Source: Pseudomonadota bacterium
GTDB taxonomy: Bacteria; Pseudomonadota; Alphaproteobacteria; Acetobacterales; Acetobacteraceae
DNA length: 45,244 nucleotides
Assembly: GCA_019352115.1 (NCBI GenBank)
Contig: JABBNW010000008.1
Span: forward strand, 1-45,244
Direction of reading: 5' to 3'
Under the pieces are notes generated by a model. That model did not search any database, was not told where the DNA came from, and saw only the letters and a list, made by a program, of their open reading frames with translations. Shown here piece after piece: positions 11,784 through 39,062 of this stretch. Position 1 is the first letter of the stretch. The number at the start of each line of letters is the position of its first letter. Position numbers and translations under genes: made by a program.

Positions 11784-12892
11784 CAGGCGATGCCGCCGGC
11801 GCCGGAATAGTTCACGCCGCTGCCGCCGCCCTTTTTCCCGTGGCGGGTGCCCTTCTTTTTGTGCAGCCGGACCTCGCCGGGGTCGGGCGTGTAGCCCTCG
11901 ATCGGGCCGACCGTGAGCGTCGTGGTCGATCCTTCGTTGTCCGACAGCCCGTATTCGACCTGCGCGGCCAGCAGGTCCTGATCGATGCCCAGCCAGTCCG
12001 ACGTGACGGCCACGATCTGGTTCGGCTGCCACAAGGTGCCGTCCGGCTGGCGCCAGCCGGGGACGGTGATAGTCGCCTTCGTCGCCTGGCCGGCGGCGTA
12101 GGCGCACATCCAGTTGACCCGCTGCTGCATCTGCGCCTGCGTCATCTGCGTTTCGCCCATCGCCACGTGCGGGCGGAAGCGCGGCACCAGGCTGTCCGTG
12201 GCGGAGGCCTGCTGTTGGGTCTGCACCGTCGTCGCCCCGGGCGTGAGGCCGTGCTGGCCCATCACGGTGTAGATGCTGAAGCGGCGCCGGCCGGACAGGG
12301 TCGCGCTGGCGTGCTGGATGTTCTGCCCCTGCACCAGCCGCCCGGCGGCCTGGGTGCTGCCGGCGGTGGTGAGCACCAAGCGCCCCTGCGCGTCGTCCGT
12401 GAGCAGCACGCCGGCCATGCGGCCGAGGCGTTCCAGGAAGGCGAACCCCGTCTCCGCCCGCTCCATCGTGGCGTCGGCCACGACGGCGGAGGCGCCGGGC
12501 GCCTGCACCACGACGTCGATCCCGAACAGGGCGGCGACGGCGCGGCAGATGGCGGCATAGCTGTAGCCGGCGAACTGGCCGCCGGCGATCGCGGGCTTGC
12601 AGTCCACCAGGTCGGCCGTCTTGCTGCGACCGGTGATGCGGACGGCGTGCTGGTCCGGTCCGAAGGCGGGGTTGTAGGCGTCGACGTAGCCGGTCAGCAG
12701 CAGGTCGGCGCCCAGCCACAGGGTGACCGGGGCGAAGGGCAGGATGCGCCAGAGCAGATCCTGGTTGGCCCAGCGTTCGGTGACCGCGATATCGAAGTCC
12801 GCGACGCACCGATCGATGCCGCGGGTGACGCGGACCGAGGTCCAGCCGTCGTAGCGGCGGCCGGCGATCACGAGGGTGAGGCGGTCGGTCAC
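11783..12892 (-). CDS. Mu gp44-like baseplate hub (gpP family)
   Basis: 369 aa. It begins TDRLTLVIAGRRYDGWTSVRVTR, followed by DFDIAVTERWANQDLLWRI, both conserved in Mu gp44-like hub proteins. TVPGWRQPDGTLWQPNQIV is the conserved C-terminal repeat-like region. The C-terminus is basic and Gly-rich (KKKGTRHGKKGGGSG), unlike most homologues. The GTG at 12892 overlaps the TGA of the DUF6527 gene as GTGA. It forms the ring on which the gp45 spike sits. Confidence 0.9.
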   Translation of the reverse strand: MTDRLTLVIAGRRYDGWTSVRVTRGIDRCVADFDIAVTERWANQDLLWRILPFAPVTLWLGADLLLTGYVDAYNPAFGPDQHAVRITGRSKTADLVDCKPAIAGGQFAGYSYAAICRAVAALFGIDVVVQAPGASAVVADATMERAETGFAFLERLGRMAGVLLTDDAQGRLVLTTAGSTQAAGRLVQGQNIQHASATLSGRRRFSIYTVMGQHGLTPGATTVQTQQQASATDSLVPRFRPHVAMGETQMTQAQMQQRVNWMCAYAAGQATKATITVPGWRQPDGTLWQPNQIVAVTSDWLGIDQDLLAAQVEYGLSDNEGSTTTLTVGPIEGYTPDPGEVRLHKKKGTRHGKKGGGSGVNYSGAGGIA

Positions 12893-33378: not shown

Positions 33379-34215
33379 CTATGCCGACAGACGCGCGTCG
33401 GGCAGCGCGCGCGACGGGCCGCGCCCAGCGATGATACGGAACGGCGGCAGCCCGAATTCCGCGCGGCGCGCGTTCACCGCGGCCAGATCGTCGTCTTCGT
33501 CCGCCACGCCGAGCGTCACGCCGTGCCGCGCGCCCCAGTCCATCGCGGCGCGCCAGTCGGACTCCGCCACGCCCACGCGCGCGGCCTCGGCGCCGAGCTG
33601 CGCGGCGACGGCGGACGGCGCGGCGTCGCGCAGTGCCCGCTGTCGGTGCCACCATACCATGAAGCCCGCGGGACGCTTCGCGCCCAACAGACTGGCACGC
33701 GCAGACAGCGTGTTCGCGTGCGCCGGGATCGGCAGGCCCGGCATGGCCGCCAACTCGGCGCGCACGACCGCTTCCGTGACGAACTGGGTCCAACGCTTGG
33801 CCAGGTGCGCGTCGCGCTTTCCGGTCCAGACGTGCTGCGGCGTTTCCTCCCGCGAAAAAGCCGCCCGCGACCCGTCCGAAGACGCGGCCGCGGGCGCAGG
33901 TGGGGAGGAAACGTCCAAGGCCCGCGAGACGCCGGCGGGCGCGGCCTGCGCCGGCGCGTCGGGCGCCGGCGAAGCTGGGGAACGATCGGCGAGGGCATCA
34001 AGCCGCGCCTGGGTGACCGCAACGTCATCGCGCACCGGCCGCGCGGCGACCGCAACCGCCTCGGCGCAGCCCAGCAGCACGGTGCCGAACCGGTGCAACA
34101 AGGTGCCGAGCGTGCGCAGCGCCGCCGCTTCCTCCGGCGTCAGATCGATCGCCGTGATGGCGCGCAGCACGTCGATCTGCGCCACGATGCCGCCGATCGG
34201 ATCGGGTGCGCTCAT
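33379..34215 (-). CDS. hypothetical replication-operon protein
   Basis: 278 aa. Residues 1-70 are helical (LTPEEAAALRTLGTLLHRFG). A low-complexity Ala/Pro/Ser linker follows at about 80-125. The C-terminal half is basic and folded-looking: WTQFVTEAVVRAELAAMPGL, then GAKRPAGFMVWWHRQRALRD and GLPPFRII. No family is recognised. Coupling between GcrA (ATGA) and the primase suggests a role in replication or regulation. The W-W-H-R-Q-R segment could bind nucleic acid, but this is a guess. Confidence 0.6.
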   Translation of the reverse strand: MSAPDPIGGIVAQIDVLRAITAIDLTPEEAAALRTLGTLLHRFGTVLLGCAEAVAVAARPVRDDVAVTQARLDALADRSPASPAPDAPAQAAPAGVSRALDVSSPPAPAAASSDGSRAAFSREETPQHVWTGKRDAHLAKRWTQFVTEAVVRAELAAMPGLPIPAHANTLSARASLLGAKRPAGFMVWWHRQRALRDAAPSAVAAQLGAEAARVGVAESDWRAAMDWGARHGVTLGVADEDDDLAAVNARRAEFGLPPFRIIAGRGPSRALPDARLSA

Positions 34216-34784
34216 TCGGCGGCTGCCAGGGTCGCGACCACGGTGGACGCGCGCGTCACGTGCCGGGTGAGAAACACCGCCGCATGGACCAGGCAGTAGG
34301 AGCACAAGCGATCGCGCCGCGGCTTGCCGCAATAGACATCCCGCGGATCCATGCCGGGCTTGAACGGCTGCAGCACGGCCTCACACCCGCGTCCGCCGGG
34401 GGCGTAGACGATCAGCGGGGGCGATTCGACCGCGCGCGGCGCGTCCGGCCGCGTCAGGCGGACCTCGGGCGCAGACGCGGGCTGCGGGCGAACCGGCGCC
34501 GCACTCAGCCGCGCGGCGCGCGGCGGCGCGGCCGGCCTGACAGCCCGTGCCGACGCGATCGGCCGTGGGGACGCACGCATGGGGCGCACAACGCCCGCGC
34601 CGCCGATCCCCTCGCGCCGGATCGGCGACGGCCGCGCCGGCAGGTCCAGGCGATGCGCCTTCCCGACGATGGCGCATTTGGAAACACCGAGGCGCCGGCC
34701 GATTTCCGCGGTCGGAAGATCCTCCGTCCAGAGTGCCCGCAGCCGCGCGATGGCAGAATCGTCCCAGTCGAAATTTCCGCTCAC
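34212..34784 (-). CDS. gcrA: phage-encoded GcrA family cell-cycle regulator
   Basis: 190 aa. The N-terminal domain (WDDSAIARLRALWTEDLPTA, then EIGRRLGVSKCAIVGKAHRL) is the GcrA helix-turn-helix; the W-x-x-x-x-x-x-x-L-x-x-L-W start and GKAHRL end are diagnostic. The C-terminus has the usual Cys/His cluster (YCGKPRRDRLCSYCLVHAAV). Host GcrA in alphaproteobacteria recruits sigma-70 RNA polymerase to promoters marked by CcrM methylation. A phage copy could redirect S-phase transcription or drive phage genes. The middle is a long Ala/Pro/Arg linker. The GTG start overlaps the previous TGA (GTGA). Confidence 0.87.
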   Translation of the reverse strand: MSGNFDWDDSAIARLRALWTEDLPTAEIGRRLGVSKCAIVGKAHRLDLPARPSPIRREGIGGAGVVRPMRASPRPIASARAVRPAAPPRAARLSAAPVRPQPASAPEVRLTRPDAPRAVESPPLIVYAPGGRGCEAVLQPFKPGMDPRDVYCGKPRRDRLCSYCLVHAAVFLTRHVTRASTVVATLAAAE

Positions 34785-35317
34785 GGCATGATCCCCCTCG
34801 GTGCGTCCACGGTGCGCAGCACCGCGCCGCTGGCGCACAGCACCACCACCCGTTGCCCGCGATACTGTTTCATGGTGCCCGACCACAGGCGGATGTCGCC
34901 GCGCCGTTGCAACGCCAGGAACGCGGATTGCAGGCCCCGGATGTCCGGCAGCCCGACCGAGCGGCCGAGCGCGCCCATCGGCGGCAGCAGCCAGTCGCCC
35001 AGCGCCGCGATCTTCCGCAGCCGGGCCAGCAGCCGCTCGGGCGCCGCGCCTGAGGCTGCCGCTGAGGCTTCCCCTGGGGCCGCGCCGTCCAGCGCCTGGG
35101 CCGCCACGCCGCCGCCGGCGCGAATGACCGCCGCGAGCGACAACGGCGCACCGCGCGGCGCCAGGAACGCAATGCGCGGGCCTTCCGGCGTTGCCCGGCC
35201 GAGCGTGTAGCCGGTCGCGGTGCGCACCTGGTTGGCGACCTGTTGCGCCGGCGGCGGATGCCCGGTCGGGACGGTGTAGGGTGTGCAGGAGCGCCGCCGC
35301 GGCGCGTCAAACGGCAT
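34781..35317 (-). CDS. hypothetical protein with winged-helix-like C-terminus
   Basis: 178 aa, no named family. The N-terminal part includes YTVPTGHPPPAQQVANQVRT and GPRIAFLAPRGAPLSLAAVI. An Ala/Gly linker follows. The C-terminal 85 residues (RLLARLRKIAALGDWLLPPM, then DIRGLQSAFLALQRRGDIRL) look like a winged helix-turn-helix, with helices followed by an RGDIRLW wing-like turn. It overlaps the 71-aa gene by 11 bp and couples to gcrA by GTGA. Regulatory or replication function is inferred from position. Confidence 0.55.
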   Translation of the reverse strand: MPFDAPRRRSCTPYTVPTGHPPPAQQVANQVRTATGYTLGRATPEGPRIAFLAPRGAPLSLAAVIRAGGGVAAQALDGAAPGEASAAASGAAPERLLARLRKIAALGDWLLPPMGALGRSVGLPDIRGLQSAFLALQRRGDIRLWSGTMKQYRGQRVVVLCASGAVLRTVDAPRGIMP

Positions 35318-36019: not shown

Positions 36020-36093
36020 TTTCCCGAGGGGTGGGGGGATTTTACGTGACGGACGGATGGCGACGGCTGAAACGAGCGCGGTGGACGCATCAT
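36016..36093 (-). CDS. 25-codon micro-ORF between the cupin and CII-like genes
   Basis: The ORF encodes MMRPPRSFQPSPSVRHVKSP plus 5 residues, basic and Pro-rich. Its ATG overlaps the cupin gene's TGA (ATGA), and its TGA overlaps GTG 36019 of the CII-like gene (GTGA). The double overlap suggests a relay cistron. The peptide does not look folded. Confidence 0.35.
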   Translation of the reverse strand: MMRPPRSFQPSPSVRHVKSPHPSGK

Positions 36094-36581
36094 TCACACC
36101 CCCGACCGACCGTGTTGCCGCCCGGCGTATCCGCGACGAAATCCTGCCAGCGACGCCAGCCGTTCGGGCAGTGAAAGCCCCAGGCGCGCACCCGCGGGCC
36201 GGTGATGAACAAGGTCCGGACCGGCTGCGGCCGACGATTGCGGGTCAGCAGCTCCACCCGGTGCGCCGCGCGCGGGCCGCGGGCGGTGACCTGGCCCGTG
36301 TCGCGCAGGAAGGCCGGGGCGCCGGCGACGTGTTCGATGTAGCGGCCATCCAGAATGACCGAGAGGCTGGGCCACGGATGATCGTGCAGCGCGCGATCGT
36401 CGTCGCTGCGCAGGAAATGATGGACATACAGGTTGAACAGCGGGTTGCGCGGGATCAGCCACCAGCGGCGCAGATAAGGATCGTCCGCGGTGCCGATGAC
36501 GAAGTCCGGATCGCGGCGCCAGGCGGTGCGGCGCAGCAGGTGGCCGAGCAGCCAGCGGCAGGTGCGGGGCGACAGTTTCAT
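36090..36581 (-). CDS. cupin-fold protein of unknown function
   Basis: 163 aa. LFNLYVHHFLRSDDDRALHD followed by HPWPSLSVILDGRYIEH and AAHRVELL, then RTLFITGPRVRAWGF, gives the two-motif beta-barrel pattern of small cupins. The possible metal ligands are His in HDH and the later His in AAHRVEL. It is the first clearly supported gene of the leftward early operon. CCGGGGGGA lies 8 bases before the ATG. The enzymatic role is unknown, and similar proteins occur in phages without known function. Confidence 0.68.
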   Translation of the reverse strand: MKLSPRTCRWLLGHLLRRTAWRRDPDFVIGTADDPYLRRWWLIPRNPLFNLYVHHFLRSDDDRALHDHPWPSLSVILDGRYIEHVAGAPAFLRDTGQVTARGPRAAHRVELLTRNRRPQPVRTLFITGPRVRAWGFHCPNGWRRWQDFVADTPGGNTVGRGCE

Positions 36582-36603
36582 GGTGCGTTTCCCCCCGGCA
36601 TGG

Positions 36604-36804
36604 TCAGAACGCCGGCAACGGACGGCAGCACAGGGCGGCCGCGGTTTCGTCAACCAGAACAACCGCGGACAGCGAGTATTCACGCCCCGCTACATGCTGC
36701 CGGTCTCCTACACAGCCAGCTTTCCGGAACGCTGCGCAGTGCGGGTCTGGCGCCCGATGACACACCGCACAGCGGGGGGAGGACGCATTGACGGGGGTGT
36801 CCAT
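36604..36804 (-). CDS. possible 66-aa Cys-rich protein
   Basis: The ORF starts MDTPVNASSPRCAVCHRAPD and continues with PHCAAFRKAGCVGDRQ; C-x2-C-H and nearby Cys/His could bind zinc. It ends 22 bp before the cupin start. The ribosome-binding site is weak (GGGGTCGG region). It shares its DNA with the promoter region of the plus-strand cargo genes. Coding status is uncertain; it is listed because its frame is the only protein-like one in this 350-bp stretch. Confidence 0.3.
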   Translation of the reverse strand: MDTPVNASSPRCAVCHRAPDPHCAAFRKAGCVGDRQHVAGREYSLSAVVLVDETAAALCCRPLPAF

Positions 36805-36822: not shown

Positions 36823-36875
36823 GGGGCAACAATGCCGCGGCCGCACGGACGCGGCCGGAACGGGAGGCGGACATG
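36823..36875 (+). promoter_or_regulatory. leader copy 1 of the cargo cassette
   Basis: GGGCAACAATGCCGC (from 36824), containing the inverted repeat GGCA-ACAA-TGCC, is followed after a variable spacer by GGAACGGGAGGCGG (36857-36870) and an ATG (36873). The same two blocks precede the next plus-strand gene at 37292-37334. The second block contains a strong Shine-Dalgarno sequence. The first could be an operator, a -10-like element (AACAAT) or the base of an RNA hairpin. Confidence 0.7.
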
Positions 36876-36926
36876 AGCGCGCGGGAGAACAGCAAGCACC
36901 CCTGGGCCGGCGCCGGCGGGAAGTAG
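36873..36926 (+). CDS. 17-codon ORF in the cargo leader
   Basis: The ORF encodes MSARENSKHPWAGAGGK. GGGAGGCGG lies just before its ATG, the best ribosome-binding site in this region, and its TAG is 4 bp before the next ATG. It occupies the same position relative to leader copy 1 as the WYL-like gene does to leader copy 2. It may be a leader peptide or the remnant of a larger cargo gene. Confidence 0.45.
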   Translation: MSARENSKHPWAGAGGK

Positions 36927-36930
36927 CAAC

Positions 36931-37242
36931 ATGGCCCGTTCAGTCATGGTGCTGCCCTGGGTCACCCGCGGGCACTACGGGCGGCTGCGGGAGATCGCGA
37001 CCGACGCGGAGATTCTCCCGCAGCGTTACGACCAGTGGCTCAAGCGCGCGGAGGAATTCGAGAACAATGTCCACGGTGGGGGAATCTGGACCCTGCGCGT
37101 GTATTTCGATCCGGAGGACTTCTTCCGCTGGGCAATGGCCCGGGGCGTGCGGCTCGACATACATGCGCGAAAGCGGTTCTGCGAGGAGATCGCCGCGCAG
37201 CGGAACGCTGCAGAGGAGGGAGAAGCCACCGAGGGGACCTGA
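36931..37242 (+). CDS. hypothetical cargo protein
   Basis: 103 aa, no family recognised. It contains RLREIATDAEILPQRYDQWL, KRAEEFENN and YFDPEDFFRWAMARGVRLDI, a helical, charged protein. GGGAAG precedes the ATG. It reads rightward, against the early lytic operon on the other strand. After its stop lies a copy of the 20-bp element that also ends the next cargo gene. It is probably an accessory gene expressed from the prophage. Confidence 0.65.
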   Translation: MARSVMVLPWVTRGHYGRLREIATDAEILPQRYDQWLKRAEEFENNVHGGGIWTLRVYFDPEDFFRWAMARGVRLDIHARKRFCEEIAAQRNAAEEGEATEGT

Positions 37243-37262
37243 CATCAGGCCGCCTCCGCCTG
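37243..37262. repeat. cassette tail copy 1
   Basis: CATCAGGCCGCCTCCGCCTG matches 38280-38299 with one mismatch. At the second location it forms the last codons of the Cro-like gene. Here it is an orphan copy following the first cargo gene. Confidence 0.75.
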
Positions 37263-37291
37263 GGCTGACGCTTTCCGGGACGCCAGCGATC

Positions 37292-37334
37292 GGGCAACAA
37301 TGCCGCCGTCGAATAGGAACGGGAGGCGGCAATG
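37292..37334 (+). promoter_or_regulatory. leader copy 2 of the cargo cassette
   Basis: GGGCAACAATGCCGCC (37292-37307), a shorter spacer, then GGAACGGGAGGCGG (37316-37329) and ATG (37332). The two blocks are almost identical to copy 1, while the spacers differ in sequence and length. This suggests selection or recent copying of the blocks. Confidence 0.7.
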
Positions 37335-38285
37335 CGAACGTTGGGACGGTGGATTGCTCGACTGGCGGGGGCGGCGCTGACGCTGTTCGGGATAATCGGG
37401 GTCATTGTGACCCTGACCGCCGCCCCATCCGACAAGAACGTGCCCCCGCTGTGGTTCGGACTGGCGATCGCGGTCGTCGGCGCGTTGCTGCTCCGAGCCG
37501 GACGCCGCCGGCGGCCTACCGATGCAAGTGCGATCATGGCCACGCCGCAGCTCGCGGCGCCCAGCCCGTGGAGCGATCCCGCTGCACCCGTTGTTGGACC
37601 GCCCGAGGCATCCCTCCCGCCGCCGACGCCCGAACCAGTGGCGCGGGCTGCGGCATTTCGGCCGGGTCCCGACGAGCAGGACCTTACGCTGCCGCTGGAC
37701 CTGCACCTGACCTTGCAGACCACCTCGGCGTGGACCGAATTCGATCAGCCGATCATCCGTGGGATCGCCTTCCCGGACGGCTCCGTGACGGCGACCGCCA
37801 TCCAGGAGGGGCACAACCCGGGAAAGAAGCCATCCCGCACCAAACTGACGCGGGACATGACGATCGACGGGGGCACACAGGGGTACGACCGCTGTTGCGT
37901 CGGGCTGTTGCGGCAGGTGGGCGTGGAGGCGCCCGTGCGCCTGCCGCATCCGATCGCCTACGACACCAGCGGCAAGGCTGGTCGGCCGGTCGGACAAGTC
38001 ACTGCCGAGGCAATCATCGACTATACCGACCGGCACTTCCAACACAGCGAGCGGCGCATCACCATCCTGGGGTTCGAACCGATCGGGCAGCACGGCCATA
38101 CGGACGACGTGATCTTCCATGCCTGGTGCTGGCAGGCGCAGGGCTATCGGACGTTCTTCCTGACGCGGATCAAGTCGATTCTGGATCCCACCACAAAGCA
38201 GCGGCTTCATTCGGTCGAATGGACGTGGGCCAAAGCCGGTATCAAGTTCCCGCCCGGCGAAAAGCTGAGCCTGCGCTGGCATTAG
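37332..38285 (+). CDS. membrane-anchored protein with WYL-like C-terminal domain
   Basis: 317 aa. Two hydrophobic helices (residues about 11-30 and 39-55, with a short loop) are followed by an Arg-rich stop-transfer (RRRR, 58-61) and a Pro/Ala-rich linker (about 70-105). The soluble part has a central region and a segment at about 224-290: AEAIIDYTDRHFQHSERRIT, then HAWCWQAQGYRTFFLTRIKS. This follows the WYL pattern (I-x-Y-x-x-x-x-x-x-x-x-R-x-I, then hydrophobic-A-x-C-x-x-x-x-x-R-x-F-x-x-x-R-I). WYL domains usually sense ligands or nucleic acid in transcription factors. A membrane-tethered, HTH-less version is unusual. Its TAG overlaps the Cro-like gene's stop (convergent). Superinfection exclusion or defence is a plausible but unproven role. 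Confidence 0.68.
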   Translation: MRTLGRWIARLAGAALTLFGIIGVIVTLTAAPSDKNVPPLWFGLAIAVVGALLLRAGRRRRPTDASAIMATPQLAAPSPWSDPAAPVVGPPEASLPPPTPEPVARAAAFRPGPDEQDLTLPLDLHLTLQTTSAWTEFDQPIIRGIAFPDGSVTATAIQEGHNPGKKPSRTKLTRDMTIDGGTQGYDRCCVGLLRQVGVEAPVRLPHPIAYDTSGKAGRPVGQVTAEAIIDYTDRHFQHSERRITILGFEPIGQHGHTDDVIFHAWCWQAQGYRTFFLTRIKSILDPTTKQRLHSVEWTWAKAGIKFPPGEKLSLRWH

Positions 38286-38299
38286 GCCGCCTCCGCCTG
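38280..38299. repeat. cassette tail copy 2 (3' end of the Cro-like gene)
   Basis: CATTAGGCCGCCTCCGCCTG encodes, on the minus strand, the terminal QAEAA and stop of the Cro-like protein, and on the plus strand the stop of the WYL-like gene. It is paired with 37243-37262. Confidence 0.75.
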
Positions 38300-38515
38300 C
38301 TGCGACCGGAGGCCGTAGGAAGAGGTGACGCTCGCGGCCAGATCATTGGCGCTAACTTGGCCGCCGGTCGCGATACGGATGCGCTCGATAACCGCGGGCC
38401 GCGGCATACGCTCACCGTTCAAGTACCGGTGGACGGCTTGCACGCTGACCCCAGCGGCCACCGCGAAGGCGGCGACGGAGACATTGTGCTCAGTGAGGTA
38501 TGCTCGAAGCTGCAT
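38282..38515 (-). CDS. Cro-like helix-turn-helix regulator
   Basis: 77 aa. The HTH is VSVAAFAVAAGVSVQAVHRY (residues about 12-31), followed by LNGERMPRPAVIERIRIATG, typical of small XRE/YdaS-like Cro repressors. It is divergent from the CI-like gene across a 95-bp operator region. A TTGACG box (38553-38548) with TGAACT 17 bp downstream brackets operator 1. The leader before its ATG is very short, so the message may be nearly leaderless. It is the expected first gene of the leftward lytic transcript. Confidence 0.85.
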   Translation of the reverse strand: MQLRAYLTEHNVSVAAFAVAAGVSVQAVHRYLNGERMPRPAVIERIRIATGGQVSANDLAASVTSSYGLRSQQAEAA

Positions 38516-38526
38516 CGTGACGCGAG

Positions 38527-38602
38527 TTCACCAGAATGGTGAATTGCCGTCAAGGGCCATTTTCACCGGATTGGCGCTGGCACCCTTCACCAGACCGGCG
38601 AT
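38527..38602. promoter_or_regulatory. CI/Cro operators O1-O3 with divergent promoters
   Basis: O1 TTCACCAGAATGGTGAA (38527-38543) is a perfect 6-bp-arm palindrome. O2 TTCACCGGATTGGCGCT (38562-38578) and O3 TTCACCAGACCGGCGAT (38586-38602) keep the left arm and part of the right. O1 lies between the -35-like TTGACG and -10-like TGAACT of the Cro-like gene; O3 is close to the CI start (38611). Three graded sites between divergent repressor genes is the lambda-type switch arrangement. Confidence 0.8.
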
Positions 38603-38610
38603 CATGCGGC

Positions 38611-38958
38611 ATGGCCAATCGGATCAGAGAGTTGCGGCTGGCGCGAGGTCTCACGCTTGAGCAGGTGGGCGCCAAAGCCGAAACGTCACCTCAGCAGATC
38701 CAGCGCCTTGAGAAGGGTGAGCGTCGCCTAACAGACGACTGGATGCGTCGTGTCGCGCCGGCCCTAGGAGTTGCACCGGCGACGCTTCTGGCGGACACCC
38801 TCCCAGACGCGGACCGCGTCGCACAGAATATCGAGGAGGTTGTCCTCCTGCGGCTCTGGCGCGTCCTCGACCCGAGCGAGAAGCGCTGGATTGCGGCGCT
38901 CGCCCGCGAAAAGGGGATCGAAACTCTCGTCGACAAGCCGAAGAAACGGCCGGCCTGA
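38611..38958 (+). CDS. CI-like XRE family repressor
   Basis: 115 aa. The HTH (RIRELRLARGLTLEQVGAKA, then TSPQQIQRLEKGERRLTDDW) covers residues about 4-45. A short C-terminal helical region (VVLLRLWRVLDPSEKRWIAA) follows. There is no LexA-type peptidase domain, so induction by RecA cleavage is not expected. The ATG at 38611 lies beside O3, suggesting autoregulation. It probably binds the 17-bp operators both here and at 39010-39062. Confidence 0.85.
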   Translation: MANRIRELRLARGLTLEQVGAKAETSPQQIQRLEKGERRLTDDWMRRVAPALGVAPATLLADTLPDADRVAQNIEEVVLLRLWRVLDPSEKRWIAALAREKGIETLVDKPKKRPA

Positions 38959-39009: not shown

Positions 39010-39062
39010 TTCTCCAATCTGGTGAAGTCTCCGCTTGACACCGCTATCACCAATATGGTGAA
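39010..39062. promoter_or_regulatory. operators O4-O5 and promoter of the rightward operon
   Basis: O4 TTCTCCAATCTGGTGAA (39010-39026) and O5 ATCACCAATATGGTGAA (39046-39062) match the O1 consensus. A half site CTGGTGAA lies at 38999-39006. TTGACA (39035-39040) followed by 17-18 bp and GTGAAT/TGAATT makes O5 overlap the promoter core, exactly as O1 does for the Cro-like gene. The CI-like repressor should therefore also shut off the rightward genes from 39072 on. Confidence 0.78.

Follow-up and report, generated by a model that had tools for sequence, protein, structure and literature searches.

A putative moron slot with repeated leaders and repeated cro ends between cro and the early operon of an alphaproteobacterial temperate phage

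The immunity regions of lambdoid phages hold morons and other accessory loci, such as rexAB, bstA and STMMW_20121 (PMC7067206, PMC8585504), and are characterized by high mosaicism and by a common moron site adjoining the repressor gene (PMC7067206). The bstA locus includes aba, a 63-bp DNA element with CCCGCC end repeats, which gives self-immunity (PMC8585504). In cluster K mycobacteriophages, the short conserved SAS/ESAS sequences are found just before the start codons of different gene families, and about half also have an imperfect inverted repeat upstream (PMC3203893, PMC12699233).

The locus described here lies in a stretch of 45,244 nucleotides of contig JABBNW010000008.1 (assembly GCA_019352115.1, family Acetobacteraceae), hereafter referred to as the window, which carries a contractile-tailed, temperate phage with sheath, baseplate, portal and primase genes. 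Between positions 36824 and 38299, two plus-strand genes, encoding proteins of 103 and 317 aa, are each preceded by the same leader and followed by the same tail, and this pair is flanked by cro and the early operon and lies on the opposite strand from that operon. The cargo thus lies on the plus strand, with cro, a cysteine-dioxygenase-like gene, a CII-like gene, a GcrA-like gene and the primase gene on the minus strand, which is the orientation expected of a moron with respect to the lytic genes. The locus resembles morons in that these are extra genes beside the repressor or opposite the lytic genes, some of which give phage defence (PMC7067206, PMC8585504); unlike the lambdoid morons, it occupies a slot between cro and the early operon in which both the leader and the cro 3' end are repeated. 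As with SAS/ESAS, the same element precedes different gene families (two unrelated genes in the window and at least five families for a second leader, 'type B', discussed below). However, the window leader consists of two copies that are confined to one slot and coupled to cro-end tails, and the SAS/ESAS consensus GGGATAGGAGCCC had no match in the window with up to two mismatches allowed. As in the case of aba, a short element stands where a prophage accessory gene begins; no BstA-like protein was found among the window cargo, for which only phrog hits and a weak WYL match were obtained. For lambdoid phages and their interlinked ninR genes, the stop/start overlaps with conserved ribosome-binding sites at gene borders were reportedly proposed as gene-exchange sites by Kroger and Hobom in 1982. 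Both cases involve stop/start junctions, whereas the junction in the window is the end of cro and the genes thought to be exchanged lie on the opposite strand. The original prediction that no described system has this layout was therefore too strong, since morons, SAS/ESAS leaders and boundary-sequence mosaicism had already been described; the combination of repeated cro ends with a junction mapped to the cro end was not met in the limited literature searched.

Each leader is composed of two blocks, GGGCAACAATGCC(GC) and GGAACGGGAGGCGG, which are identical between the copies over 15 and 14 bases, respectively, and are followed by ATG. In leader 1, the upstream block GGGCAACAATGCC occupies 36824-36836 (+), with identity to leader 2 running to 36838, and the downstream block GGAACGGGAGGCGG (36857-36870, +) holds the Shine-Dalgarno sequence GGGAGG and ends 2 nt before the ATG at 36873. 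The corresponding blocks of leader 2 are located at 37292-37304 (+; identity running to 37306) and 37316-37329 (+), the latter 2 nt before the ATG at 37332. The spacers inside the leaders differ in both length (20 nt in leader 1, 11 nt in leader 2) and sequence. The 20-bp tail core, CAT[C/T]AGGCCGCCTCCGCCTG, is present at 37243-37262 and 38280-38299, and the copies extended to 24 nt are 92% identical. Tail 1 (CTGACATCAGGCCGCCTCCGCCTG, 37239-37262) contains the stop codon of the first gene and is a copy of the cro 3' end, and in tail 2 (CTGGCATTAGGCCGCCTCCGCCTG, 38276-38299) the stop of the 317-aa gene overlaps the cro 3' end itself. The leader and tail repeats are beyond chance: two exact repeats of at least 14 nt within 600 bp were observed against 0.027 expected from 300 shuffles of the region, and a colinear two-block repeat like that of the leaders was seen a single time in the window, while none of 60 whole-window shuffles contained one. 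The predicted recurrence of one 20-bp tail after both genes was accordingly confirmed, as was the identity of its second copy with the 3' end of the minus-strand cro-like gene. The claim that the same leader leads directly into the ATG of each gene stands for the two leaders and fails in one detail, as the ATG at 36873 opens a 17-codon ORF and that of the 103-aa gene lies at 36931. Upstream of both leaders, at unequal distances, there is another near-repeat, GCTTTCCGG[A/G]ACGC (36719-36732 and 37270-37283). The leader sequence GGAGGCGG (36857-36870, 37316-37329) and the tail sequence CCGCCTCC (37247-37262, 38284-38299) are exact reverse complements over 8 nt, both being Shine-Dalgarno elements read in opposite directions; because these complementary elements face opposite ways, the end of a cargo mRNA could pair with its own leader.

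The 17-codon ORF (MSARENSKHPWAGAGGK, 36873-36926, +) ends 4 nt before the first accessory gene, p103, and owing to this spacing it is possibly a leader peptide or a coupled start. The p103 gene (36931-37242, +) encodes 103 aa and belongs to phrog_4753 (E 7e-15). Its product is predicted with high confidence to adopt a small alpha/beta fold, which matched no PDB structure at E 0.001 and gave two good matches among viral models, one uncharacterized and the other without a name. The second accessory gene (37332-38285, +) encodes a 317-aa protein of an unrelated family with two N-terminal transmembrane helices (residues 2-29 and 40-58) and a weak WYL-like match at the C-terminus; its structure model is poor except for the two helices. 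Codon-position GC favours the plus-strand reading of both genes, and the minus-strand ORFs, including one of 345 aa opposite the 317-aa gene, were rejected by the same measure as shadows.

The slot is bordered on the right by a cro-like gene for a helix-turn-helix repressor of 77 aa that ends in QQAEAA (38282-38515, -), followed by a cI-like gene for a helix-turn-helix repressor of 115 aa (38611-38958, +, from the ATG at 38611). Operators resembling TTCACC-N4-GGTGAA lie between the two (38527-38602), the one at 38527 being perfect and those at 38562 and 38586 degenerate; they are unrelated to the leaders, which were thereby ruled out as cI/cro operators. Two further operators of this type, with one mismatch each, were noted downstream of the cI-like gene (39010-39062, at 39010 and 39046), and their presence on both sides of that gene suggests another repressed promoter in the direction of 39088. 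Near the leaders, lambda-type CII sites (TTGC-N6-TTGC) were no more frequent than by chance, the nearest being a minus-strand site at 36615-36628 with one mismatch. On the left, the minus strand carries the CII-like, GcrA-like and primase genes. The early operon also includes the cysteine-dioxygenase-like gene (36090-36683, -; phrog_4786, E 1e-55), relatives of which occur in mycobacterial, Gordonia and Caulobacter phages. The gene for a GcrA-like cell-cycle regulator (34212-34886, -) is likewise part of the early region, and GcrA-like genes also adjoin the slot in two of the phages compared below (L028 and L030). No known RNA families were found in the window, and a consensus scan for sigma-70-like promoters found none. 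The tails were rejected as intrinsic terminators; no terminator is located there, and the tail copies fold no better than shuffles.

When read on the cro strand, the tail comprises the last codons of the gene (GGAGGCGGC-stop, QAEAA-stop), a GGAGG ribosome-binding site and an overlapping T(G/A)ATG. It is best read as the end of cro, a junction of an ordinary phage operon type, and not as a neutral tag or a purpose-evolved cassette end. The sequence GGAGGCNGCNTGATGTCA was found in 58 viral contigs of IMG/VR, in many of which the junction closes unrelated genes, and in 4 of 397 genomes of the host family (five sites; none for the reversed control). The similarity between the tail-1 flank and cro was matched in 2 of 500 shuffles with the tail included and in 49 of 500 without it; the whole flank was consequently discarded as a cro relic, similarity beyond the 24-bp tail not being significant. 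Tail 1 of the phage contig L116 corresponds to the C-terminal 68 aa left over from a 229-aa gene (phrog_20156, E 9e-36), and this truncated remnant shows that at least some tails are scars of displaced lytic-strand genes. In another contig, L028, a small lytic-strand ORF of 83 aa that ends in KREAA (11859-12110 in reverse-complement coordinates) faces the second of two p103 homologues, and hence not every tail in L028 is a cro remnant.

The same layout was recognized in other temperate phages, in which the stop of the p103 homologue falls on or just before a cro-type tail; beyond this tail comes cro itself or else another, unlike extra gene with a tail of its own. L070 has the order p103, tail and cro, with no second cargo in between; in L063 the p103 tail is followed by a gene for a 124-aa membrane protein, another tail and cro; and in L116 it is followed by a leader and a gene for a 139-aa membrane protein. 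L028 contains three tails behind three genes and carries two diverged p103 copies in tandem, with a tail after each, and in L140 the cro homologue is followed directly by a same-strand gene. Among the phages with the same layout, to which this comparison applies, the cargo is thus present, absent or replaced: L070 lacks a second gene, L063, L116, L030 and L028 have others, and L140 has none. The cargo of L063 matches the prophage defence family PD-Lambda-6 (E 1e-5). In Burkholderia phage Bcep176, the p103 homologue gp17 is similarly placed, belonging to a plus-strand block (gp15-gp19) adjoining the CII-like gp14. Six p103 homologues were aligned, but their divergence was too great for the alignment to serve in a contig search. 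In L157 and L068, which belong to the same contig, two different genes are preceded by two type-B leaders, and beyond these genes lie a tail and, in the position of cro, an antisense ORF; this is the layout of the window built from other sequences. A strong match to the Rfam RT-15 RNA (182.5 bits) was observed in the L070 phage contig (12988-13170, +).

The exchange of cargo could be followed in beta-proteobacterial phages with the type-B leader, GTTCCCACGCAACGTAGAATCGGAGGCTCCTACACC...TTCTACGTTGGGGGAAC, which was found in 18 IMG/VR contigs. Between L142, L148 and L149 on the one hand and L145 on the other, the leaders are 90-92% identical, the 300 bp upstream 89-94% and leader and flanks taken together 84-94%, and cI is 91% identical where readable (L142, L148, L145), whereas the cargo shows no similarity. 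L149 and L145 are 87% identical at the DNA level up to +48, the base before the ATG, with nothing aligned beyond; the alignment of L142 with L145 likewise breaks off at +48 and begins again within cro, near +1140. The two cargo genes of Achromobacter phage CF418P1 (OQ817832) encode 96 aa (cargo A) and 92 aa (cargo D). The sequence of this phage follows L142 with 96% identity up to +463, and from +457 onwards it follows L145 with 93% identity, which places the meeting point of the parental types inside the tail. The tail is repeated in CF418P1 as an exact 23-bp sequence, the second copy being the cro end, and the unrelated Cro proteins of L149 and CF418P1 share the end LAEGVEHV. The cargo combinations comprise A (L149), A and D (CF418P1), B and D (L145), and A and C (L142), and in all four phages the breakpoints fall at a boundary element. 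These phages show cargo replaced exactly after the leader, units joined at the tail and a tail shared by unrelated cro genes.

The proposal that leader-cargo-tail units are swapped between conserved ends therefore finds good support in the comparison of other phages with other leaders. As regards the window prophage itself, swapping is not demonstrable, since its leader was found nowhere else. This leader is absent, except for unrelated chance matches, from its own genome, 299 genomes of the family and IMG/VR, and a relaxed IMG/VR search returned five hits, none of which was leader-like before an immunity-region gene. Close relatives of the region were not found either, and consequently no crossover can be located in the window prophage. 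Different cargoes enclosed by conserved ends, the observation named as support for the proposal, were seen: the type-B leader and flanks enclose unrelated genes, and the p103 tail is followed by different ones. Rather than p103 and its neighbour always occurring together with no other cargo, p103 has different next genes in different phages.

The repeats may be accounted for in other ways. A single duplication of the leader, p103 and tail, the second gene body having been replaced or having diverged past recognition without recurrent exchange at the repeats, would be in keeping with the duplication of both elements and with the tandem p103 copies of L028. It is nevertheless regarded as quite unlikely, given that the spacers differ in length and sequence though the blocks are identical, the two cargo proteins fall into unrelated families and the second gene varies from case to case in other phages. 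Slightly less probable still is an explanation without any recombination role, in which the tail is a convergent translation junction (GGAGG, EAA codons and a stop/start overlap) and the leader an efficient ribosome-binding site. The wide occurrence of GGAGGCNGCNTGATGTCA at unrelated gene ends is consistent with it, but chance would not be expected to yield two exact 16-mers within 1.1 kb, the leader's upstream block is no ribosome-binding site, and the actual junction of CF418P1 falls at such a tail.

It is conceivable, if tentative, that the leader is chiefly a regulatory dyad in RNA or DNA, either a hairpin hiding the Shine-Dalgarno sequence against read-through or an operator, and that its duplication serves the co-regulation of both genes. 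The analogous leaders, namely type B and those of L063 and L070 (in L070, CGAAAGGACCGGACCATGA is repeated before two genes), fold strongly (z -2.1 to -4.6), the right arm containing the Shine-Dalgarno sequence. In the type-B dyad, four pairs are changed on both sides, a number reached in 3 of 500 shuffles, with 0-1 in slid controls. The upstream blocks of both window leaders also form GGCA-ACAA-TGCC hairpins, with a variable outer stem. The window leaders, however, are no more stably folded than shuffles (z -0.5 to -1.1), and the type-B leaders are likened to them by position. Regulation by a dyad would be compatible with the exchange of units favoured below.

The locus is rather likely to be a moron slot in the immunity region, the units of which are exchanged via the leader and the stop/Shine-Dalgarno/start junction of cro. 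The slot would be bounded by cro and the leftward early operon, its genes opposite the lytic strand and pointing at cro, and each unit would comprise a cargo gene with a start-associated leader before it and a copy of the cro 3' end behind. The leader is presumed to be a Shine-Dalgarno element with a second short conserved block ahead of it, and the cro end an ordinary lytic-strand operon junction, in which C-terminal codons with GGAGG precede a stop overlapping ATG. As the leader and the junction are retained while the gene they enclose is replaced, units from different phages could be joined at these two sites by short-homology recombination, and a unit added beside cro would leave a second copy of the junction, namely tail 1. 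The window prophage presumably shares the history of the other phages, probably by way of phage single-strand annealing or host recombination over short homology, and its cargo would be expressed in the lysogen and have host-protecting roles. Since one related cargo, that of L063, matches PD-Lambda-6, phage exclusion by other cargo genes is a reasonable guess. A more general and rather unlikely extension would be that temperate phages of Proteobacteria have a recombination-driven cassette array beside cro, made of cassettes with a leader, a cargo gene and a cro end each, which grows and shrinks by crossovers at the tails, with the phage-specific leader dyad marking the left border and silencing read-through so that in the lysogen the only start used by a captured gene is its own.

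The slot, with its units joined at the leader and the cro end, provides a concrete anatomy with testable borders of how temperate phages may gain and trade small genes beside their switch. It appears that short boundary sequences enable temperate phages to swap accessory genes; one such gene, carried by a related phage, is similar to a known anti-phage defence, and the leader and cro end may be used as handles to list cargo genes across prophages.
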